Source of the DNA: a virus
Virus record (IMG/VR): IMGVR_UViG_3300025313_001058
Location: 1 to 25,330 of that record
Reading direction: 5' to 3' (one strand)
Length of the DNA stretch: 25,330 bases
Made by a program: the position numbers and the translations under genes. Numbering within the stretch: the first letter of the stretch is position 1; every line of letters starts with the position of its first letter. Of this stretch, positions 1 to 25,330 are shown piece by piece. Below the pieces are notes generated by a model. It was not told the DNA's origin, searched no databases, and was given only the letters and a program-made list of their open reading frames with translations.

Positions 1-29
1 TCGCCGAGAACGGCACCTGCGAGCACTGA
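1..29 (+). CDS. 3' end of the small gene that starts at 25069
   Basis: The last codons (ending NGTCEH and a TGA at 27-29) of the 62-residue hypothetical protein described at 25069-25257. It is partial here only because the window opens inside the gene on a circular molecule. Confidence 0.85.
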
Positions 30-102
30 CCGGTTGCCCCACCCCGAGAGGAAGCCGTAATGCCCCTGATCAACCCGGAGACCGGCAGCGAGATCGACAT
101 CG
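1..102. repeat. Left copy of 102-bp terminal overlap (circle join)
   Basis: These 102 bases are identical to 25229-25330. The repeat begins in the last codons of one small gene and ends inside the next, and both genes are complete only when the ends are joined. This is what an assembler leaves at the ends of a circular molecule; removing one copy gives 25,228 bp. A head-to-tail tandem array would look the same. Confidence 0.93.
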
Positions 103-523: not shown

Positions 524-2581
524 ATGACGGACACCGTCGTACCCGCCACCGTCGACGCACCCGAGGCGCCCGCCGCCCCCGTCCCCGTCGACAACCCGAA
601 CCTGCCCAAGCCCGGCGTCACCGACGAGAAGCGCCGGCCGATCCTCCCCCCGTGGCTCAAGGACCGCACCGAATTCGCCACCACGGCCCGCCACACCAGT
701 GGACGCCTCGGCTACGCCACCGCCTACCACGGGCTCCGCGCCCCCTGGTACGCCGTGCAGCTGACCGCCATGGCCCCGCGCGGCGCCTGCCGCTTCGTCG
801 CCGACACGAACCGGTGGCTGTGGGACCGCGAAGCCGCCCCGCTCCGCGGGCACGCCGTGCGCACCGAGGACGTCGAGGAGTACCTGCACCTCGCCCGGCT
901 GCGCGGCAACCGCGTACGCCTGCGCGGCCTGGTCGTCATGACCGCGGCCGTGTTCGGCACGGGCTTCGCGCTGTGGCTGCACGTCATGGCCCCCGCCTAC
1001 CTGTGGGCGTTCGCGGCCGGCGCCGTCCTCACCATGGGCTACTTCGGCCAGCAGCCCGACGCCCCCGTCATCGGCCCGGCCGTCATGCGCACCGACCTGC
1101 AGAAGCTCACCGGCAGCATCGTGCTGCGCGCCCTGGACTCGATCGGCAACTCGAAGATCTCCGCCGCCGTGAAGAGGGGCGGCGATATGAACGGCATGCG
1201 CTTCACCAGCGAGATCACCCGCGACGGGCCCGGCTACCGCGCCGACCTCGACCTGCCGTACGGCGTCGTGCCCGAGGACGTGATGGAGGAGAGGCAGGCC
1301 CTCGCCTCCGGCCTGCGCCGCAAGCTGGGCTGCGTGTGGCCGTCCGGCGACCCCGACGAGCACGAGGGGCGGCTGATTCTCTGGGTCGGCGACAAGCCGA
1401 TGAACGAGACCACCAAGCCCCCGTGGCCGCTGCTGCGCGAGGGCGAGGTCGACCTGTTCAAGCCCGTCGTGTTCGGCAACGACCAGCGGATGCGGGACAT
1501 CATGGTCACCCTGATGTTCGCCTCGGTCGTCATCGGCTCCATCCCCCGCATGGGCAAGACGTTCCTGCTCAGGCTGCTGATGCTCATCGCCTCCCTCGAC
1601 CCGCGCGCCCACCTGTACGCGTTCGACTTCAAGGGCACCGGCGACCTCGGCCCGCTGGAGCCCGTCTGCCACCGCTACCGCTCCGGCGAGGACGACGACG
1701 ACCTGCTGTACGTCCTGCACGCCATGCGGGAGCTGAAGGAAGAACTCCGGCGCCGCGCCAAGGTGATCCGCAACCTGCCCAAGTCCCGCTGCCCCGAATC
1801 GAAGGTCACCCCGGCCCTGGCCAGCGACAAAAGCCTCGGACTGCACCCGATCGTCGTCGGCTTCGACGAGTGCCAGGTGCCGTTCGAGCACGAGAAGTAC
1901 GGCGCAGAGCTGGAGTCCATCTGCACGGACATCGCCAAGCGCGGCCCGGCCCTCGGCATCGTCGGCATGTTCGCCACCCAGCGCCCCGACGCCAAGTCCC
2001 TGCCGCCGGGCATCTCCGCGAACGCCGTGCTCAGGTTCTGCCTGAAGGTCATGGGCCACACCGCCAATGACATGGTGCTCGGCACCGGCGCCTACAAGGC
2101 CGGCATCCGCGCCACGATGTTCACCCGCTCCGACCGCGGCATCTGCTGGATGTCCGGCGAGGGCGACGACCCGGTCATCGCGGCCTCGGCGTTCGTGGAC
2201 GGCCCGGGCGCCGAGGGAGTCGTGGCCCGAGCCCGCCAGCTGCGCGAGGACTACGGCAACGTCACCGGCCACGCCCTCGGCGAAGGCCCCTCGGCCACCG
2301 TCGGCATGGACATCCTCGGCGACGTCCTCAAGGTCATCGCGCCGACGGAGAAGGCCGTGTGGTGCGAGCGCCTGGCCGTCCGTCTCGCCGAGCTCCGGCC
2401 GGACGTCTACGCGGAGTGGAAGGGCGAGAACGTGACCGCCGCGCTCAAGCCGTGGAGCGTGCGCACCGGGCAGGTGTGGGGGCAGACCGACGAGGGCGAG
2501 GGCAAGAACCGGCGCGGCATCGAGCGGGCCGATGTGGCCGCCGCGATCGCCCGCCGGGAGGCCGACAGGCTCGCCGCGTAG
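524..2581 (+). CDS. traB: TraB/FtsK-SpoIIIE-type DNA translocase for conjugation
   Basis: A 685-residue membrane-anchored ATPase. After a Pro/Ala-rich N-terminus (1-45), two hydrophobic segments lie at about 136-155 and 158-175. The motor domain carries Walker A GSIPRMGKT (338-346) and Walker B VVGFDE with D448-E449, followed by ATQRPD, the usual sensor motif of FtsK-like pumps. The C-terminal ~100 residues would hold the winged-helix (gamma-like) domain that in Streptomyces TraB proteins reads short repeats at clt. In this family one hexameric protein moves double-stranded DNA between mycelia without a relaxase, and none is seen here. The ATG at 524 follows GGAGAGA; the in-frame stretch back to 206 is the shadow of the preceding gene. 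Tra expression is normally lethal unless repressed, which fits the GntR gene nearby. The overall family is clear; the exact subfamily is inferred. Confidence 0.95.
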   Translation: MTDTVVPATVDAPEAPAAPVPVDNPNLPKPGVTDEKRRPILPPWLKDRTEFATTARHTSGRLGYATAYHGLRAPWYAVQLTAMAPRGACRFVADTNRWLWDREAAPLRGHAVRTEDVEEYLHLARLRGNRVRLRGLVVMTAAVFGTGFALWLHVMAPAYLWAFAAGAVLTMGYFGQQPDAPVIGPAVMRTDLQKLTGSIVLRALDSIGNSKISAAVKRGGDMNGMRFTSEITRDGPGYRADLDLPYGVVPEDVMEERQALASGLRRKLGCVWPSGDPDEHEGRLILWVGDKPMNETTKPPWPLLREGEVDLFKPVVFGNDQRMRDIMVTLMFASVVIGSIPRMGKTFLLRLLMLIASLDPRAHLYAFDFKGTGDLGPLEPVCHRYRSGEDDDDLLYVLHAMRELKEELRRRAKVIRNLPKSRCPESKVTPALASDKSLGLHPIVVGFDECQVPFEHEKYGAELESICTDIAKRGPALGIVGMFATQRPDAKSLPPGISANAVLRFCLKVMGHTANDMVLGTGAYKAGIRATMFTRSDRGICWMSGEGDDPVIAASAFVDGPGAEGVVARARQLREDYGNVTGHALGEGPSATVGMDILGDVLKVIAPTEKAVWCERLAVRLAELRPDVYAEWKGENVTAALKPWSVRTGQVWGQTDEGEGKNRRGIERADVAAAIARREADRLAA

Positions 2582-3521: not shown

Positions 3522-3686
3522 TCAGCAACCAGGCCGGGAGCCCTTACGGTGGCACGGGCAGCCGCACCGCAACGTCATCAACGGCCGCTCCCACGCGGGT
3601 GCGCCCTCGCGGCGTATCTCGCCGGGCCCGTCACACAGCTGGTGCATGTCGTGCTCGCACTCGGGGGCCTTGCCGTCGACGCTCAC
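3522..3686 (-). CDS. Small Cys/His-rich protein (54 aa)
   Basis: Reads MSVDGKAPECEHDMHQLC and ends MTLRCGCPCHRKGSRPGC. The arrangement C-x-H-x2-H-x2-C and then C-x-C-x-C-H is a zinc-binding pattern. I chose the GTG at 3686 because GTGA overlaps the stop of the upstream gene by 4 bases, which is translational coupling; an ATG at 3728 would overlap by 46 bases. It forms a two-gene leftward unit with 3683-3880. Similar tiny Cys-rich proteins are common on Streptomyces mobile elements; the function is unknown. Confidence 0.7.
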   Translation of the reverse strand: MSVDGKAPECEHDMHQLCDGPGEIRREGAPAWERPLMTLRCGCPCHRKGSRPGC

Positions 3687-3880
3687 GGCCGGTCGGCGTA
3701 CGGGACGAGGTTGTACGTCGTACGACACGGCTGGCAGGCGAACACGCCACCACCCGGCCCGGAGCCCTGCTCCTGTACCTCGATCAGCCGGACACCCTCA
3801 GCGCTCCCCTTGTGCCAGGCGCAGAAGCCGTAGGCGGTGGGGGTGTTCGAGGTGTCGGGGGTGTGCGTACGCTCGCGCAT
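3683..3880 (-). CDS. Small Cys-pair protein (65 aa)
   Basis: MRERTHTPDTSNTPTAYGFC at the N-terminus, FCAWH in the middle and FACQPCRTTYNLVPYADRP at the C-terminus. C-x2-H and C-x2-C spaced by about 25 residues suggest one zinc ribbon. The ATG at 3880 has GTGGAG upstream. It is divergent from the GntR gene across a 167-base region with operator-like repeats, so the repressor may control it too. The protein looks like a family often seen in Streptomyces plasmids and islands, but I cannot assign a function. Confidence 0.7.
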   Translation of the reverse strand: MRERTHTPDTSNTPTAYGFCAWHKGSAEGVRLIEVQEQGSGPGGGVFACQPCRTTYNLVPYADRP

Positions 3881-4047: not shown

Positions 4048-4317
4048 ATGGCCACCAACCCGGACGCCGACATCGACCACGAAGGACCCGTCACCCCGTA
4101 CCGGCAACTCGCCGCGATCCTGAAAGCCCGCATCAAGCGGGGCGACTGGACGGAGGGCCGGCCGATCGCCTCGGAGACACGCCTGGTGCAGGAGTACGGG
4201 TTGGCCCGGTCAACGGTTCGGAGGGCGATCGCGGTGCTCGTCGACGACGGTGTGGTGTGGACCGTCCAAGGGCGCGGCACGTATGTGGGCCAGCCACCCG
4301 AGGACACCGCCGAATAG
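4048..4317 (+). CDS. Minimal GntR-family repressor (89 aa)
   Basis: Only the DNA-binding domain of a GntR regulator is present: TPYRQLAAILKARIKRGDW (16-34), ASETRLVQEYGLARSTVRRAI as the helix-turn-helix (41-61) and wing QGRGTYV (74-80). The usual ligand-binding C-terminal domain (UTRA or FCD, 120-170 residues) is absent and the frame ends cleanly at TAG, so this is a short form, not an obvious truncation. GntR repressors (the Kor proteins of pIJ101 and pSAM2 type elements) hold tra genes silent on Streptomyces elements. Position next to the transfer region and an upstream repeat cluster fit that role. Its targets are inferred. Confidence 0.88.
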   Translation: MATNPDADIDHEGPVTPYRQLAAILKARIKRGDWTEGRPIASETRLVQEYGLARSTVRRAIAVLVDDGVVWTVQGRGTYVGQPPEDTAE

Positions 4318-4567: not shown

Positions 4568-7500
4568 TCACGCCGCCCGGGGCAGACGGTTCGTACGCTT
4601 CAGCCGGTCTATCGACTTCGCCAGCCAGTTGTCCAACTCCAACTGCGAACCGATCGGCCCCTCATGGTGGAAATGGAACTCCTGCGTCACGTTCGTCACC
4701 GCGCCCACCCCCGTACGCATGCTGCCCACACCGAGCGGAGCCAGCGCCCCCACACCGCCAGCCGACGGCCGCATCACCATCGGCATACTGACCTCAGCCT
4801 GCGCCGCACCCGCCAACGTTTGCGCCGCCCGCCGCACCAACGCCTCACGCTGCGCAATACCAGCCGCAAGCGACTCGCTGATCGCCCGCCCCGAATACAG
4901 CACCCAACCCCGCCCAGAGAACGGGCCCTCCTTCGCCGGACTGCCCGGGAACAGATCCCGCGCCGCGCTGACGAGACTGCCGGCCGCGTCCTTCACCGCG
5001 CCGATCTTCGACGTGATGCCGTCGATGAACCCCTGGATCAACGAGCGCCCGGAACTGGCCAAAAAGCCGCCGAGATCACCAAGCGCATCCCTCGCGCGGC
5101 CCGGCAGACCCTTCGCCGCCTCGACCGCGTCGCCGATCTTCTCCCGCAGCGCCTTCAGCAACGCGCTGCCTGCTGTCGAGGCCCGGTCCCGCAGAGTCCC
5201 CGCCAACGACCCCAGCGCGCGGAAGATCTGGCCAGGCAACGCGGTGAACAGTCGCACGGCGGTGCTGACCATGCCCGAGACGACCCGCTTCGCGTTCTCG
5301 AACGCCCCCGAGAAGTCGCCCCGCAGCAGGGACGTGATCGTGTTGATGGCGGGGATGACCAGCGTCTGAATCTTCGCCGCCAGCTCGCCGGCGAACACCG
5401 ACGCGAGGCGCCCCACCAAGCTGATGACCGGCGTCAGCAGCGGCAGCAGTACGGCAAGGCCTTGGCTAACAAGCTGGCCCAGGATCGTGAGCAGCGGGCC
5501 GATCGCGACGAACAGCTGACCCACCGCCGTGCCCAGCTGTGTGAACGTCGGCGCCAACTGGGTGATCAGCTGCGACACCACCGGCAGGATCTGCGACGTC
5601 AGCTGCGTGAACGTCTGCACCAGCGGATCGATGATCGCAGGCAGCGCGGCAATGATCGGCGCCAGGATCGACGTCAATACCGTGCCGAGCTGCGACACCA
5701 CCGGCGCCAGGCCCGTGAAGGCCTGCGCGATCGCGTTCACGACTGGCACGAGAGGCGGCAGCAGCGACGCCACCAGGCTGCCGATCACCGGGAGCAGCGG
5801 GCCCACCGCATCAGCGAGCGCACCGACTGCACCGGCCGCCGCCTCCAGGACCGGACCCAGGCTCTCGATGACCGGTCCCAGGGCGGAGCCCAGATTTTCG
5901 ATCAGCCGCTGCACCGGCGGCCCGATCGTCGTAAGCGCGGGGGCGAGCGCGCCGAGCGCGGAGCCCAAAAGTGGCGCCGCCGTCGTCGCCAACATGGACA
6001 CGGCCTGGAACAAAGCCTGCAAGGCGGACTGCACGGCCGGAGACGCGAACGTCGTCGCCAACTGCCCGCTGATCGTCTTCAACGTGCCGACGAACCCGCC
6101 GCCGGACACCTGCGCCGCCTCGAACACCGAGCCGAAGACGGAGCCGATGTTCCGGCCCACGTCGACGAGATCCCCGATCAGGGAGACCGCCGTCTCGATC
6201 GCCCGCTCCATCGCGCCCGACTCGAACGCGGTCGTCAGCCGATCCGACAGCCGCCCGACCGCGTCACCGCCAGCCTTGGCCAGCCGCTCGAACGCCGGCG
6301 CAGCCGCTGCACCGATCTGCACCAGCCCTTGCAGCACCACTCCGGGCAGCGCCGAGAACGACCGCAAACCCTTGGTCGCGCCGCCGAGAGCCTTCCCCAA
6401 GGCCCCCGACTCCGACAGATTCGTCGCCGTGTCGAGGACGCCACGCGCCATCAAGTTCAGCGAACCCGCCGACGACCGCAGCGCCGCCGACACCTGCGGA
6501 AACGCCGCCTTCGCCGTGCTCTGCAGCGTCGTCCCCAGCTTGGCGAACAGCCGCTCCTGCACGTCCAGGCGCAGCTGGTCGAACTCGGGCCTCAGCCCCC
6601 GCACCGCGAGAACGAACGACTGCGCCGACGGGGCAAGCTTCTTCAACGCCGCATCGAACTCCGCCGCCTTCGACGGATCGAACGCCACCGCGAACGCGTC
6701 GGAAACCCCAAGCATGCCGATCTTCAACGCGGCACCCGCCGACACCGCCGCCAAGATGCCCGTCGCCGCCAGACCCGCGGCCGGAGCAATGTTCTGCAGC
6801 ACCGCCACCAGCCCGGCGGCAACCGGCACCGCAGCACCCAGAGCGCCGGCCGCGACACCCACCCGCCCGGCCACCGCACCGACAGCACCGGCCACCCGGC
6901 CAGCCACCGACGCCAGCGAACCCAAGGACCCGCCGAGCCGGTCCGTGTCCCCCGACGCATTACCGGCATCCCGCAGACCCCGGCCCACGTCCGGCAGACC
7001 GCCCCGCAAATCCCTCAGATCAGCGTTGACACCCCGGATGGAATCCGCCAGCCCGCCGAACCGGGTCGACGCGCCGAGCGCGGCAGAATCCAGGTCACCG
7101 AGCCGGTCGACGGAGTTCTCCGCCCGCTGCGCGAGCATCCGCAGACTCGCCGCCGCCTGCGCGGCCGCGGGCCTCAAATCGGTGAACGTCGCCGTCACCG
7201 CGGCCACCCGGCCCCGCAGCACCCGCAGCTCCCGCGCCGCGCTCTGGGCCGCGGACTCCACCAGCCCGAGCACGCCGGCCACCGCCGTCGACCTGGTCGA
7301 CAGGATGCGCAGACTGCTACCGGAAGCACCCGCATCCCGCAGAAGGTCACGGATCGCCGCCGCCGCCGCCGCGATATCGGCCTGCCCACGCACCTGAAGA
7401 TCGAGGCGGGCACCGCCCGCCGCCGTACGCAGGCTGCGGACCTCACGGCTGACATCGGTGACGGACCGCTGGACACTGCGGAACCTCGTCTGCGCCTCAC

Positions 7501-7600
7501 GGGAAAACCGGGCCAGCGCCCGCGTCGCCGGGTCGGTGTCAGCGTCGACCCGGATACTCGCGTCACCGACCAGGCCGCCATCACCAGCGGGGGTACTCAT
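4568..7600 (-). CDS. Phage tail tape measure protein (1010 aa), orphan
   Basis: A siphophage-type tape measure protein. The N-terminal ~170 residues are charged and helical (DADTDPATRALARFSREAQ). A hydrophobic Ala/Gly/Val stretch lies at about 245-297. Residues 530-735 are an irregular repeat of the form P-x2-x2-LG-x2-L typical of these rulers. The C-terminal part has FPGSPAKEGPFSGRG (about 884-898) and ends PIGSQLELDNWL...RTNRLPRAA, both hallmarks of actinophage tape measures. In phages it sets tail length and, with its hydrophobic part, helps DNA cross the membrane. I start it at ATG 7600, whose ATGA overlaps the stop of the preceding gene; the open frame continues to 7651 without a better start. 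No tail tube, chaperone, capsid or portal gene is present. The family is clear; the role here is unknown. Confidence 0.93.
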   Translation of the reverse strand: MSTPAGDGGLVGDASIRVDADTDPATRALARFSREAQTRFRSVQRSVTDVSREVRSLRTAAGGARLDLQVRGQADIAAAAAAIRDLLRDAGASGSSLRILSTRSTAVAGVLGLVESAAQSAARELRVLRGRVAAVTATFTDLRPAAAQAAASLRMLAQRAENSVDRLGDLDSAALGASTRFGGLADSIRGVNADLRDLRGGLPDVGRGLRDAGNASGDTDRLGGSLGSLASVAGRVAGAVGAVAGRVGVAAGALGAAVPVAAGLVAVLQNIAPAAGLAATGILAAVSAGAALKIGMLGVSDAFAVAFDPSKAAEFDAALKKLAPSAQSFVLAVRGLRPEFDQLRLDVQERLFAKLGTTLQSTAKAAFPQVSAALRSSAGSLNLMARGVLDTATNLSESGALGKALGGATKGLRSFSALPGVVLQGLVQIGAAAAPAFERLAKAGGDAVGRLSDRLTTAFESGAMERAIETAVSLIGDLVDVGRNIGSVFGSVFEAAQVSGGGFVGTLKTISGQLATTFASPAVQSALQALFQAVSMLATTAAPLLGSALGALAPALTTIGPPVQRLIENLGSALGPVIESLGPVLEAAAGAVGALADAVGPLLPVIGSLVASLLPPLVPVVNAIAQAFTGLAPVVSQLGTVLTSILAPIIAALPAIIDPLVQTFTQLTSQILPVVSQLITQLAPTFTQLGTAVGQLFVAIGPLLTILGQLVSQGLAVLLPLLTPVISLVGRLASVFAGELAAKIQTLVIPAINTITSLLRGDFSGAFENAKRVVSGMVSTAVRLFTALPGQIFRALGSLAGTLRDRASTAGSALLKALREKIGDAVEAAKGLPGRARDALGDLGGFLASSGRSLIQGFIDGITSKIGAVKDAAGSLVSAARDLFPGSPAKEGPFSGRGWVLYSGRAISESLAAGIAQREALVRRAAQTLAGAAQAEVSMPMVMRPSAGGVGALAPLGVGSMRTGVGAVTNVTQEFHFHHEGPIGSQLELDNWLAKSIDRLKRTNRLPRAA

Positions 7601-7857
7601 GAGGACTCCAGACACTTCAGGGCCTGCTCGGCCGTCACCTCGGCCGCACACGCCAGCGCCGCATCCACCGCGCGCGGCGGCGCGGCCTCACACAGGCTGA
7701 CCCCCGCGGCTGCCTCGACCTCGACGCGGATCCGCTCCACGTCCAGCGCCGCCGCCCAGAACCCGTCAGTCCCGTCCAGCAACTGCGCTTCGAGGATCGC
7801 GGCCTCCAGCCGGGCGGCACCCTCGTCGAGGAAACGCTCACGCTCCAGCGCGTCCAC
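7597..7857 (-). CDS. Small helical protein upstream of tape measure (86 aa)
   Basis: MDALERERFLDEGAARLEAA and so on: acidic, helical, with two Cys residues and no membrane segment. The GTG at 7857 has a strong GAGGAGG ribosome site that lies within the preceding gene. Its stop overlaps the tape measure start by 4 bases (ATGA), so the two are coupled. Position just before the tape measure is where phages encode tail assembly chaperones, but those are longer and use a slippery frameshift, which I do not see. The family is not recognised. Confidence 0.7.
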   Translation of the reverse strand: MDALERERFLDEGAARLEAAILEAQLLDGTDGFWAAALDVERIRVEVEAAAGVSLCEAAPPRAVDAALACAAEVTAEQALKCLESS

Positions 7858-8065
7858 CCGCCACCTCCTCAAGGAGGTAAAAGCGCAGGCCGCGCCCGCA
7901 CCGCGCAGGCACCACCAGCCGCGTCATCACCGGATCCGCAAGATGCGTATGACGGCGCCGGCAGTACGTGCAACGCCGCACCACCCACACGATCGCACCG
8001 TCTTTGTCGGCGGCCTCGCGGGTGGCCTCCACCACCGGCAGCTCGCCGGTACGGGCGGCGGTCAC
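7838..8065 (-). CDS. Small zinc-finger-like protein (75 aa)
   Basis: The middle reads VVRRCTYCRRRHTHLADPVM, then ARCGRGLRFYLLEE: C-x2-C-x4-H-x-H plus a later Cys, a possible zinc site. The GTG at 8065 gives a GTGA overlap with the stop of the larger upstream gene; a GTG at 8098 is an alternative that overlaps more. It is third from the end of the tape measure unit and overlaps the next gene by 20 bases. No family is recognised. Confidence 0.65.
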   Translation of the reverse strand: MTAARTGELPVVEATREAADKDGAIVWVVRRCTYCRRRHTHLADPVMTRLVVPARCGRGLRFYLLEEVAGGRAGA

Positions 8066-8958
8066 CGCTGGGCCCGCGTCGACGCCAGCCGAGGGCACGC
8101 ACAGCCGCTCGCCAAAAGATGGCCGCAGCGCAGCGTGCCCGGCCTGGCCGACGCCGTCACAGCCCGACGCCCGTCCACTACAGCCGCATCCTTCTCCAGA
8201 CCGCGCACCGTCGCGGCCAGCCGGATCGCCGCCCGCTGATCACCCCGCCGCTTCGCATCCTTCAACCGGGCCCGCGCCGTACGAAGGTTGCGGGCCACCA
8301 GCATCTTCCCGCCGTCGTCCTCGACGGCCGTCACCGCCCGCGCAGCAGGCTCCGGCAGGGCGGGCGGACGCGTACCCGCCGGAGCCTCCACACGACCCTC
8401 AATCGGGCGCGCACCGCCCGGATGAACCCGGCCGTGCAACTCCGCCATCCGGGCCCGCACAAGCCCACGATCCCGCTCGCACGTCGGACCACCCAGCAAG
8501 GCCAGCCCCACCTGGCTCGCCAACTGGCCATCGGAAACCGGAATCCCCGCCATCCGCCCAGCGATACGGGCCGCACACCACCGGCAACCCGACCCGTCCG
8601 GCAACGCCGCCGCGTTCAACATCGCCGCCCCGAAGGCCGACTTCACCGACTCGGACATCGACGTGAGAGCCGCGCTCCCTCGAGGCCCCGGAGCCGTCGC
8701 CGGCGGATGCAGCTGCAGACGCACATCCCTCGCAAGCTGAAGCAGCCGATCCGCACCAATCCGCTCGATCGCCGCATCCTGCCGCCGCGCCCGCAGAGCC
8801 TCGACGTCACTGGCCAGTACCTGGATCGGGTCACGGGTCACCGGCCTGAGCTCGCCCCGGTCGATCGCCTTGTGCACCGCCCACACACTGAGCCCGAGCC
8901 GGTTCGCCGCAGCCCGCACCGGCAGCGGCGGAATCGTCGCGTCCTCGCCGTACACCAT
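8062..8958 (-). CDS. HTH protein with Cys clusters, first gene of tape measure unit (298 aa)
   Basis: Residues 14-40 (VRAAANRLGLSVWAVHKAID) form a MerR/excisionase-like helix-turn-helix, followed by a short recognition-wing segment RDPIQVLASDVEALRARR. Further on there is C125-RW-C128 and a C-terminal C278-x-H280-x5-C286-x-C288, which suggest bound zinc. The ATG at 8958 has a perfect GGGAGGA site. It leads a coupled unit with three smaller genes ending in the tape measure. Two copies of the GGTTG-W-CAACC palindrome lie 15 and 79 bases upstream. It could be a DNA-binding regulator of the unit or a packaging-related protein; I see no enzyme motif. It is not obviously a known phage family. Confidence 0.8.
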   Translation of the reverse strand: MVYGEDATIPPLPVRAAANRLGLSVWAVHKAIDRGELRPVTRDPIQVLASDVEALRARRQDAAIERIGADRLLQLARDVRLQLHPPATAPGPRGSAALTSMSESVKSAFGAAMLNAAALPDGSGCRWCAARIAGRMAGIPVSDGQLASQVGLALLGGPTCERDRGLVRARMAELHGRVHPGGARPIEGRVEAPAGTRPPALPEPAARAVTAVEDDGGKMLVARNLRTARARLKDAKRRGDQRAAIRLAATVRGLEKDAAVVDGRRAVTASARPGTLRCGHLLASGCACPRLASTRAQR

Positions 8959-8972
8959 CTGCCGTTCCTCCC

Positions 8973-8983
8973 GGTTGACAACC
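8973..8983. promoter_or_regulatory. Palindromic operator GGTTGACAACC (copy 1)
   Basis: GGTTG-A-CAACC is a perfect odd palindrome 15 bases upstream of the start codon at 8958. The same sequence with central T is at 9037-9047. Binding here would cover the leader of the tape measure unit. Confidence 0.6.
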
Positions 8984-9036: not shown

Positions 9037-9047
9037 GGTTGTCAACC
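9037..9047. promoter_or_regulatory. Palindromic operator GGTTGTCAACC (copy 2), overlapping a -35 box
   Basis: This is the same palindrome as at 8973-8983 with central T. Read on the minus strand it contains TTGACA, a consensus -35 box, with AATGAT about 19 bases further on as a possible -10. It therefore probably marks the promoter of the tape measure unit, repressed by whatever binds the palindrome. Confidence 0.55.
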
Positions 9048-9122: not shown

Positions 9123-9166
9123 GGTGGCCCGCTTCCTCGCTTCTTCGGCCGGGGAAGCGGGCCACC
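9123..9166. terminator. Strong hairpin terminator (first of a tandem pair)
   Basis: GGTGGCCCGCTTCC (9123-9136) pairs perfectly with GGAAGCGGGCCACC (9153-9166), a 14-bp stem. With the hairpin at 9174-9211 it separates the terminase-small-like unit from the promoter of the tape measure unit. Confidence 0.85.
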
Positions 9167-9173
9167 ACACAAC

Positions 9174-9211
9174 GGCCCGCCCCCTTTCGTGGTGGTCAAC
9201 GGGGGCGGGCC
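9174..9211. terminator. Strong hairpin terminator (second of a tandem pair)
   Basis: GGCCCGCCCCC (9174-9184) pairs with GGGGGCGGGCC (9201-9211), an 11-bp perfect stem, 11 bases after the stop of the leftward gene ending at 9223. It is the first terminator met by leftward transcription. Confidence 0.85.
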
Positions 9212-9222
9212 TACTGCTGCAC

Positions 9223-9501
9223 CTACCGGCCCGGCCGCCAAATCACCGCCGACATGCCCGACCCGTACCGCATCCCGATCACACGCCGCCACCGCCGAGC
9301 CTCATCTGACGACCCCGGCCGCGGCTCCTGCTGAGCCTGTCGCGCCCGTACGGCGGCCTTCTGCTGCTCCTCGGCCTGCTCCCGCCGCAGCGCCTCGTGC
9401 GCGGCCGACAACGCGGCGAACTCCCGCTCCCGGCCCTCGCGTGTCATCTTCGCCATCGCCCGCAGCATCCGCGCGAGCCGCACATCCGTCTCGTCACCCA
9501 C
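9223..9501 (-). CDS. Small charged helical protein (92 aa)
   Basis: Starts MGDETDVRLARMLRAMAKMT and continues with a long Arg/Glu/Ala/Gln helix (about 22-55, EREFAALSAAHEALRREQAE), probably a coiled coil, and a basic tail ending VIWRPGR. The GTG at 9501 follows a GGAGG site inside the end of the upstream gene and overlaps it by 8 bases, so the two are coupled. It sits behind the terminase-small-like protein and is followed by two terminators. The function is unknown; a packaging or DNA-binding partner is possible. Confidence 0.72.
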   Translation of the reverse strand: MGDETDVRLARMLRAMAKMTREGREREFAALSAAHEALRREQAEEQQKAAVRARQAQQEPRPGSSDEARRWRRVIGMRYGSGMSAVIWRPGR

Positions 9502-10129
9502 CTGTACGGCCCTCCTCCTCGTCGTCGACCTCGGCGAGCAACGCCTCGACGTCCACGTCGGGCTCGTCCGCCACCAGGTCCCGCAACTTCTGTTCCATCC
9601 CGGCCCGCGGATCCACCGGCTCCTCGACGGCCGCAGGCTCCGGCTCCGGCAACGGCTCACCCGACAACTGCGCCACCGCCGCCCGCACAGCCAACTGCCG
9701 CCGCCCCTCGTCGAGCTGCAACACCTCCAACGCCGCGGTCACCGCAGCCACCACGATGTGCCCCTGGTCGTCCAAGTGCCGCTCGAACGTCACCGCAATC
9801 GGCTCCGTCGCGTCCAGGCCGAGCAGCTTCCTGCGGCTCTCCGAGAGCCGGGTAAGCCGGTCGATCGCCTTCAGCCTCACCTCGTCACCCTCCGCCCCGT
9901 CCAGCACCTCATAGGCGCGGACCGTGAGGTCGTTCAGCCGCGCGGCCTCCAACTCCCGGTACTCGGTCGCCACCGGCGTCACCAGCTCGGCGAGCGCAGC
10001 CGTGATCCGATCGGACACACCCTGATGCGACAGCCCGACGCGGGCGGCGATAGCGCGCAGCGACAGGCCGGAACACCTCAGACGAAGGATCTCCTCGTCC
10101 TGCTCGGCACGGACGGGATCAGTCTTCAC
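9494..10129 (-). CDS. HTH protein resembling phage terminase small subunit (211 aa)
   Basis: Residues 13-45 (EILRLRCSGLSLRAIAARVG and LSHQGVSDRITAAL) are a helix-turn-helix. It is followed by ELEAARLNDLTVRAYEVLDG, then GDEVRLKAIDRLTRLSESRR and KLLGLDATEP (101-110). The order HTH, then an ELxxARL helix, then a GD-led helix ending RRKLLGLDA is the layout I know from small terminase-like proteins of actinophages. The C-terminal third is acidic (EALLAEVDDEEEG). The GTG at 10129 has a GGAGG site. There is no large terminase on the element, so it cannot package alone. It could recruit a helper phage's terminase, or be a plain regulator. The packaging link is inferred. Confidence 0.75.
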   Translation of the reverse strand: MKTDPVRAEQDEEILRLRCSGLSLRAIAARVGLSHQGVSDRITAALAELVTPVATEYRELEAARLNDLTVRAYEVLDGAEGDEVRLKAIDRLTRLSESRRKLLGLDATEPIAVTFERHLDDQGHIVVAAVTAALEVLQLDEGRRQLAVRAAVAQLSGEPLPEPEPAAVEEPVDPRAGMEQKLRDLVADEPDVDVEALLAEVDDEEEGRTGG

Positions 10130-10142
10130 GGGCACCTCCACG

Positions 10143-10972: not shown

Positions 10973-11392
10973 TCAGCCGGACGTGGGGAGCACCTTGCCC
11001 GGGTCGACGGCGAACTCCTCCAGCCACATCGGGTACTCCGTGCGCGGCCTCTCCGCCAGCACGGCCAAGACGTGGGCGTGGCAAAGGTCCGGAGCACACC
11101 AGCACGCCAGGACCGACCCGCGCAGCAGCTGCACGCGGGAATGCAGGCTGGTCTCCTGCAGGAGGTACCGGCAGTACGCCGCCACAGCCGCCTCGTTCGA
11201 GCCGATCGCCTTCACGGTGTACGGGTTGTTCAGCGCGCTCGCGGACAGGTTCCAGCCGCCCGCCCGTACGCCCTTCATCTCACGGCCGACGTAGACGAGG
11301 CCCTTGGGTGCGTTCTCCAGCCGCGGCCCGTAGTCGCGGATGAGGCTGCGGCCGTTCGGCCCCTTCTTCAGGTTGATGACGGTGGTGGTCAT
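10973..11392 (-). CDS. DUF4326-like protein (139 aa)
   Basis: The pattern NPYTVKAIGSNEAAVAAYCRYL, then LRGSVLACWCAPDLCHAHVLAVLAE matches DUF4326, a family common on phages and plasmids: an NP-x-x-V segment, a Y-x2-YL helix and a CWCAP-x2-CH signature that probably binds metal. The function of the family is not known. The ATG at 11392 follows GGAGG (an upstream ATG five codons earlier would include that ribosome site). The 71 bases upstream hold the terminator of the preceding gene, so it probably has its own promoter. Confidence 0.82.
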   Translation of the reverse strand: MTTTVINLKKGPNGRSLIRDYGPRLENAPKGLVYVGREMKGVRAGGWNLSASALNNPYTVKAIGSNEAAVAAYCRYLLQETSLHSRVQLLRGSVLACWCAPDLCHAHVLAVLAERPRTEYPMWLEEFAVDPGKVLPTSG

Positions 11393-11424
11393 GTCGGTGC
11401 CCTCCATGGTGTCGGTGGTGTGGC

Positions 11425-11449
11425 GGCCGCGCCCAGGGAGAGCGCGGCC
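11425..11449 (-). terminator. Terminator after the 94-residue gene
   Basis: GGCCGCGC (11425-11432) pairs with GCGCGGCC (11442-11449), an 8-bp perfect stem with a 9-base loop, 15 bases after the leftward stop at 11464. Confidence 0.7.
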
Positions 11450-11463
11450 CGTGGTCGTCTCGG

Positions 11464-11748
11464 TCACGCGACGGCGGGGACTTCGGGTGCCGGAACCGGC
11501 GGATACCACTCCGTCCACTCGCCGTCCACGACGGTGCCGAGGATCGTCCCGCGCACGCTGGACACGGCCAGTTCGTCGGCGACCAGCGCCGCCAGGCCGG
11601 GGAAGTCGACGATCCACATCTGTGTCTCGGGGTCGGGGAACATGTCGCGGACTACGGATTCGCGGTCGGCGGTCCGCATGCCGACGAACGTTTTGACGTC
11701 GAGGACGGTGTTGGTGAAGCAGATGAACGAGATGTCCGGCTGGGGCAT
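11464..11748 (-). CDS. Hypothetical protein (94 aa)
   Basis: MPQPDISFICFTNTVLDVKT, then MWIVDFPGLAALVADELAVS and an acidic, Pro-rich C-terminus (EWYPPVPAPEVPAVA). It is soluble, with no Cys pair and no signal. The ATG at 11748 has a clear GAGGAG site nine bases before. Hairpins lie on both sides, so it is probably a single-gene unit. No family is recognised. Confidence 0.7.
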   Translation of the reverse strand: MPQPDISFICFTNTVLDVKTFVGMRTADRESVVRDMFPDPETQMWIVDFPGLAALVADELAVSSVRGTILGTVVDGEWTEWYPPVPAPEVPAVA

Positions 11749-12501: not shown

Positions 12502-12780
12502 TTACTGCCGGGCCTGGTCGCCGAGGAGCTGCTGCTCGCCGTCGTCCTGGCCGTCTGTCGGATTTCCGACAGTCGCCTGGTCGTCGACCTCGTCGAGGCC
12601 GGGCTCGTCGCGGCTCCGCTGCTCGGCTTCGGCCAGGTTGCGGAGCTTCCTCGCGTGCCGGTGGGCGAGGCCGGCGCGGCGGGCTTCGGCGAGTTCGGCC
12701 CGCTGGCGGCGCATGTCCTCGGTACGCCGACGGGCGGCCTGGATGCGGGCGGTGATCTGCGCCTCGACGTGGGAGGTCAT
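12502..12780 (-). CDS. Coiled-coil protein with AHRHARKLRNLA motif (92 aa)
   Basis: Residues 1-50 form a long basic helix (EAQITARIQAARRRTEDMRR) ending AGLAHRHARKLRNLA (36-50); the tail is acidic (DGQDDGEQQLLGDQARQ). The same helix and motif recur in the protein at 13779-14126, so the two are paralogues. ATG 12780 overlaps the stop of the preceding gene (ATGA). The Arg/His-rich helix could bind DNA or a partner protein. The family is not known to me. A hairpin follows the stop. Confidence 0.75.
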   Translation of the reverse strand: MTSHVEAQITARIQAARRRTEDMRRQRAELAEARRAGLAHRHARKLRNLAEAEQRSRDEPGLDEVDDQATVGNPTDGQDDGEQQLLGDQARQ

Positions 12781-25068: not shown

Positions 25069-25257
25069 ATGCGCAAGTGGAACACGTTCTCCGAGATCAC
25101 CGACAGCAACGGCAACACCGGCACCGCCCGCATCAGCGTCTGCGCGGAGACCGACGTAGCCGCAGGCCGCGCTGCCGCCGAGGCGGTCCACGCCAACGGC
25201 TACAAGGTCATCGACGGACGCGTCGACATCGCCGAGAACGGCACCTGCGAGCACTGA
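25069..25257 (+). CDS. Hypothetical protein (62 aa)
   Basis: MRKWNTFSEITDSNGNTGTA, then ARISVCAETDVAAGRAAAEA and VHANGYKVIDGRVDIAENGTCEH. Two Cys far apart; beta-alpha-beta pattern; no membrane segment. ATG 25069 has GGAAGGA upstream; the frame is open back to 25018 but without a better start. Its 3' end repeats at 1-29 because of the circular overlap. It leads into the 37- and 60-residue genes and tra. No family is known to me. Confidence 0.7.
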   Translation: MRKWNTFSEITDSNGNTGTARISVCAETDVAAGRAAAEAVHANGYKVIDGRVDIAENGTCEH

Positions 25258-25330
25258 CCGGTTGCCCCACCCCGAGAGGAAGCCGTAATGCCCCTGATCA
25301 ACCCGGAGACCGGCAGCGAGATCGACATCG
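25229..25330. repeat. Right copy of 102-bp terminal overlap (circle join)
   Basis: Exact second copy of bases 1-102. It contains the end of the gene starting at 25069 and the beginning of the gene found whole at 60-173. It is read as redundant sequence at the junction of a circular molecule, not as a transposon or att repeat, because there is no flanking host DNA. Confidence 0.93.
25288..25330 (+). CDS. 5' end of the 37-residue gene (second view)
   Basis: The first 14 codons of the gene present whole at 60-173, cut by the end of the window. It is redundant sequence from the circle join. Confidence 0.8.
   Translation, partial: MPLINPETGSEIDI

Follow-up and report, generated by a model that had tools for sequence, protein, structure and literature searches.

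The window, by which we mean the whole stretch of DNA under analysis, corresponds to a 25,330-base IMG/VR virus record ending in an exact 102-bp terminal repeat, which closes it into a circle of 25,228 bp. On its minus strand it encodes a tape measure protein (TMP), the phage protein that sets tail length and also helps the entry of phage DNA. The features of the circle that are relevant to this gene are the following (coordinates in the window, strand, description).

1..102, copy at 25229-25330, no strand: terminal direct repeat, marking a circular molecule of 25,228 bp
524..2581, plus: FtsK/TraB-type DNA translocase (conjugation); PHROG_1358, E=3e-25; 92% identical in the phage-like record G002
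3683..3880, minus: 65-aa Cys-containing protein kept next to GntR across the element family (cluster c91)
4048..4317, plus: GntR-family regulator, convergent with the TMP gene; PF00392, E=7e-15; copy in the G016 element 86% identical
4568..7600, minus: orphan TMP, 1010 aa; PHROG_305, E=4.5e-99; begins with ATG and is ATGA-coupled to the gene before it
7597..7857, minus: 86-aa protein overlapping the TMP start, candidate chaperone by position only; coding score
7838..8065, minus: small protein of 75-86 aa containing a stretch rich in Cys and His (CTYCRRRHTH); coding evidence
8062..8958, minus: 298-aa protein with an N-terminal winged-helix-like DNA-binding domain, first in the TMP unit; weak HTH_17 / excisionase matches
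8973-8983 and 9037-9047, no strand: two 11-bp palindromes, GGTTGACAACC / GGTTGTCAACC, 64 bp apart in the 264-bp gap upstream of the TMP unit
9123..9211, no strand: pair of strong inverted repeats that separate the TerS-like gene from the TMP unit and probably form terminator stems
9494..10141, minus: orphan terminase-small-subunit-like (TerS-like) protein, 215 aa; PHROG_645, E=4.2e-16; part of the cluster immediately upstream of the TMP
14586..16121, minus: DnaB-like/AAA_25 replication helicase; PF00772, PF13481; 64-76% in sister elements
17931..18929, plus: tyrosine recombinase (integrase); PF00589, PF02899
18994..20418, minus: large serine recombinase; PF00239, PF07508
22956..24473, plus: membrane and T5orf172 domain protein, possibly a SpdB-like spread protein; PF10544, PF13455

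Outside the TMP, the gene content of the circle reads as that of an actinobacterial integrative/conjugative element (AICE): an FtsK/SpoIIIE-type translocase, site-specific integrases, a replication protein and a GntR-type regulator are all present, and the window is an integrative element lacking a complete set of virion genes. Two recombinases, one of the tyrosine and one of the large serine type (17931-18929 and 18994-20418), occur together on this one circle, a DUF4326 protein (PF14216, E=7e-16) is encoded in the operon at 10973-11467, and the genes at 12502-12780 and 13779-14126 encode two small basic paralogues (cluster c337), further relatives of which occur in G245, G251, G265 and the hybrid record G002. 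Plasmids searched for near-identical DNA returned no match to the window, for which neither an empty site nor a near-identical relative was found.

The tape measure gene and its transcription unit

The TMP is encoded by a single frame open from 7600 to 4568, in agreement with the full-length protein originally predicted, and the alignment with PHROG_305 (tail length tape measure) spans residues 8-937, which is most of its length. The other PHROG families listed for the protein are nearly all tail or TMP families or unannotated. A comparison with siphophage TMPs, which had been proposed as a check, evidenced the Streptomyces siphophages OnionKnight (41%) and mu1/6 (43%) as its closest relatives among isolated phages, over the middle 55-60% of the protein. 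The conserved C-terminal motifs of the original prediction are not well supported for this TMP, since neither its first 178 nor its last 47 residues matched any TMP in isolated phages, although the PHROG_305 alignment reaches from residue 8 to residue 937.

The coupled four-gene unit that had been described is real, as the genes from 8958 to 4568 overlap one another, with ATGA at the TMP start. Its first product, the 298-aa protein, has a homologue in the G265 element (40%), and viral contigs scanned with this protein and with the TerS-like protein yielded no relatives. Considered as possible tail chaperones, the two small genes at 7597-7857 and 7838-8065 match no PHROG or Pfam family. The unit was also claimed to have its own operator: the GGTTGNCAACC palindrome occurs twice in the window, both times in the 264-bp gap upstream of the unit, against 0.00 occurrences expected from shuffles, and on this sequence support the pair is a probable operator of the TMP unit.

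Among the remaining window proteins we recognised no other head or tail family at E≤0.01, a search of a kind that may overlook divergent tail genes, and all ORFs big enough for a TerL, portal or capsid protein carry other assignments. The TMP does not lie within a tail gene cluster, such genes being absent from the circle. The original statement that no other tail, capsid or packaging ATPase gene is present holds at this threshold, but it had missed the TerS-like gene at 9494-10141.

The PHROG_645 match of this TerS-like protein covers positions 20-129 of 196 and extends well beyond the HTH, whereas matches to this family in the other genomes, among the six searched, are mostly HTH-only noise. 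Genes named 'Rnase E', the family name of PHROG_645, directly precede TerL in mu1/6 and Zuko, and the window protein matches OnionKnight TerS (9e-6), Zuko gp6 (4e-6) and the TerS of the Arthrobacter phage Altadena (E=3e-4), after which comes the Altadena TerL; its homology to phage TerS preceding TerL thus reaches past the HTH. A structure model of low confidence (pLDDT 63) has TerS as its top viral fold matches, and the fold search of the model against the PDB gave nothing significant. As for the other genomes, G279 has one strong PHROG_645 match located elsewhere in its genome, G265 has two copies, and G016 encodes a PHROG_5536 protein (E=2e-26) of the same family as the gene directly preceding TerL in the G225 prophage. 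Matches to TerS families are weak in G251 and in G038, a sister without TMP, and no TerS was recognised in L196, L226, G245 and G001. On contig C17 of G265, closely related copies of the TerS-like/HTH region are found at both ends (L258, L261), which suggests two related elements in one genome.

Recurrence and anatomy of the elements in Streptomyces

We have surveyed a sample of 393 Streptomyces genomes, with several contigs cut, in which TMP matches at E≤1e-40 were obtained in 56. The original prediction had raised the question of recurrence without tail genes, and this is indeed observed: 8 of the 62 loci examined are of the orphan type, with the TMP in an integrative element and no recognised virion gene nearby, these eight including three incomplete or doubtful ones (L223, L232, and L198, which ends at a contig edge). 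The other loci are prophage-like or cut by contig ends. Together with the window, TMPs without a recognised virion gene nearby are those of G001/L039 (a 16.2-kb record), G016/L048 (Streptomyces sp. AC512_CC834), G245/L085, G225:C77/L196, G356/L226, G251/L231 and G265, in the latter case on two contigs (L198 and L258) which presumably belong to one element. The assignment is less sure for L223, where the TMP has the opposite orientation and a weak minor-tail-like match is present, and for L232, a contig of 6 kb; L022 is a further, partial case of TraB plus TMP. When the remaining genes of L196, L226, L048, L039 and L085 were scanned against PHROG, no head or tail family appeared among the best 25 of 57 families (none better than 2.7e-7).

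The usual gene order in these elements runs from integrase through HTH, replication gene and small genes to TMP, convergent GntR and the 65-aa Cys protein, the latter (c91) being found in the window, G001, G016, L196, L226, L198 and L231. The elements of G016, L196 and L226 are complete at about 14 kb, with integrase, replication gene and TMP, and TraB is absent from all three, which makes the TMP independent of conjugation. A 14-bp att core, CGTGAACTACCGGT, is common to L226 (14.39 kb, no TraB) and G245 (20.75 kb, with TraB). The same host genes adjoin L196 and G016, in which a search for direct-repeat att sites found none of ≥12 bp in the zones tried. A comparison of the L196 element with the prophage of the same genome, made in search of a common packaging-site-like sequence, returned just the TMP region and some short matches of the kind that chance would produce.

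Other observations concern the relatives of these elements. In the G001 element the helicase is split by a frameshift (L039, 5696-7209), reflecting sequencing error or decay, and a sister locus in G038 (L073, 5213-11070) has the same replication gene, HTH and GntR with a 247-aa protein in the place of the TMP. The GntR regulator, considered as a marker of TMP elements, proved too common (233/393 genomes at E≤1e-10) and in most cases lies apart from any TMP. In three phage-like records TraB/FtsK occurs alongside a virion module and small genes of the conjugation type, namely L020/G002 (L040-L041), L032/G014 and G332 (L068-L069), and these are apparent phage/conjugative-element hybrids.

Evolution of the orphan tape measure proteins

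In a tree of 67 rows the orphan TMPs do not form a single clade and are spread over several of the starred phage groups; counted on this tree, the sequences indicate that they were captured independently at least five times. The window TMP pairs with the orphan TMP of G265 (70%, dN/dS 0.42), and that of G245 lies beside the TMP of L005, a phage bearing virion genes, at 82.5% over 1180/1180 gap-free codons (dN/dS 0.21). The partner of the L196 TMP is that of L200, a prophage of the same genome (66%, dN/dS 0.36), the last 31 residues of the two being 94% identical, L226 pairs with G001 (dN/dS 0.57), and G016 groups with L195/L002/L016. The dN/dS values are pairwise (NG86) and range from 0.2 to 0.6, some of the pairs being orphan versus phage, so that part of the selection may have acted in phages. 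As judged from these sequences, the orphan TMP is an intact and recurrent gene under purifying selection. There is strong support for the original argument that selection maintains the full frame, since the orphan recurs in independent elements, is always open and has dN/dS values well below 1.

Comparison with known systems

The closest precedent is found in the PLE satellites of Vibrio cholerae, whose own TMP is required for efficient transduction and builds chimeric tails; satellite control of tail assembly was there first shown, in 2026 and for one Vibrio family, and putative tmp genes occur in some cf-PICIs (Extended Data Fig. 10) (PMC12987554). The Streptomyces elements resemble PLEs in being integrative islands with a satellite TMP that differs from the phage TMP and comes without a full tail module (PMC12987554). 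However, PLEs have TAC, and some also BhuB, beside the TMP, whereas no TAC or hub was recognised in the Streptomyces elements; PLEs exploit a contractile-tailed phage and their transduction has been shown, whereas the presumed helper of the Streptomyces elements is a siphophage. Also unlike PLEs, the latter have swapped TMPs between members and some carry conjugation genes.

The resemblance to PICIs and SaPIs lies in an integrative element of about 14 kb with integrase, regulator, replication gene and, in some members, an orphan TerS, but no capsid-remodelling gene was recognised here in a search without PICI-specific models. To our knowledge, an orphan TMP does not count among the classical features of PICIs. 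The cf-PICIs encode capsid, portal and terminase, of which the Streptomyces elements have TerS-like genes alone. MulchRoom and MiniFlayer share the host genus Streptomyces and are satellites of siphophage helpers, MulchRoom having also an integrase and a GntR-type regulator; they differ in encoding a capsid and both terminase subunits, and a tape measure is unmentioned in that report (PMC10690885). Finally, AICEs of the pSAM2 type have in common with these elements the integrase, the replication gene, a KorSA-like GntR, FtsK/TraB and spread-type membrane proteins, whereas the Streptomyces elements add the orphan TMP and the TerS-like gene, and several sisters have no TraB.

A proposed satellite-like role and its alternatives

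The reading that we favour, with a probability of about 0.55, is that the TMP is a cargo gene kept by selection on Streptomyces integrative elements, which would live as satellite-like parasites of siphophages by way of chimeric tails. Upon infection or induction of a helper phage, the element would replicate and produce a TMP of its own together with, in some members, a TerS of its own; the tube, tip and chaperones of the helper tail would then assemble on the element TMP, and the chimeric tails would join helper capsids that package the element, with its TerS steering the terminase in the members having one. For elements bearing TraB, the window among them, conjugation and phage particles could both serve as routes of transfer. 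The expression upon infection, the incorporation into tails, the packaging and the transduction are inferred. The TMP and TerS-like homologues are candidate virion-redirecting functions and in some elements share a gene cluster, with TerS upstream. The satellite-like trait put forward in the original prediction is further favoured by the complete 14-kb elements that have a TMP and no TraB and by the PLE precedent (PMC12987554), and the dominant-negative alternative of the same prediction stands beside it. No genes for capsid size, cos/pac or helper inhibition were recognised, nor was a tail assembly chaperone, whereas PLEs pair one with their TMP. A wider proposal, which we advance tentatively and consider less probable than the reading just given, is that of an actinobacterial satellite class that swaps its own TMP, recaptured from successive helpers, into helper tails, some members being also conjugative and exploiting both routes of spread.

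The main rival, which we regard as unlikely although worth serious attention, is a dominant-negative defence in which the element TMP poisons siphophage tail assembly, yielding tails of wrong length or unstable ones and shielding the host and hence the element, so that transfer in particles becomes unnecessary. Interference with tail assembly is already known as a defence strategy (PMC11364771), as in the case of Rta (PMC12987554); TMPs taken from different phage lineages would fit the tracking of local phages, and the members bearing TraB already own a route of transfer. However, a poison could be truncated, whereas these TMPs are full length and colinear with phage TMPs, in G245 at both ends; the TerS homologues upstream in the cluster suggest packaging and not blocking alone, and PADLOC gives no match for the TMP.

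Less probable again is that the TMP is what was left when a phage/conjugative-element hybrid lost its other virion genes. G002, G014 and G332 do join TraB to a virion module, a weak minor-tail-like match is present in L223, and relatives of the window TraB at 70-92% are mostly found in phage-like records with virion genes, which indicates frequent recombination with whole phages that could leave remnants. In fact, G002, with its 92% identical TraB and entire virion module, corresponds in part to the kind of relative that would point to the recent deletion considered in the original prediction. However, the window TMP has no sister among the TMPs of G002, G014 and G332, which fall in other parts of the tree, and the gene order of these records differs with the virion module placed elsewhere, so that a simple recent deletion does not fit. 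Moreover, at least five independent cases keep the TMP and no other virion gene (TerS excepted), with every frame open and dN/dS of 0.2-0.6, contrary to what a remnant would suggest.

A role in conjugation itself, with the TMP for example as a membrane-spanning channel helping TraB to move double-stranded DNA across the wall, is very improbable: TMPs do take part in DNA entry and several members have TraB, but three complete elements have the TMP without TraB, a TMP related to P0002 is missing from most of the records in which a close TraB occurs, and the TMPs change independently of TraB.

Implications

Taken at the strength of the satellite-like reading, these results suggest that small mobile elements of Streptomyces, having a TMP gene and no other tail genes, dress their DNA in borrowed and altered phage tails, and that their case is distinct from that of the Vibrio family and evolved independently of it. 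The border between conjugative elements, satellites and phages is blurred, because one translocase lineage occurs in all three. The orphan TMPs constitute a natural set of tape measure swaps with which to ask what a parasite gains by carrying a tail ruler of its own, the candidate benefits being escape from TMP-directed defence, tail length and DNA delivery.
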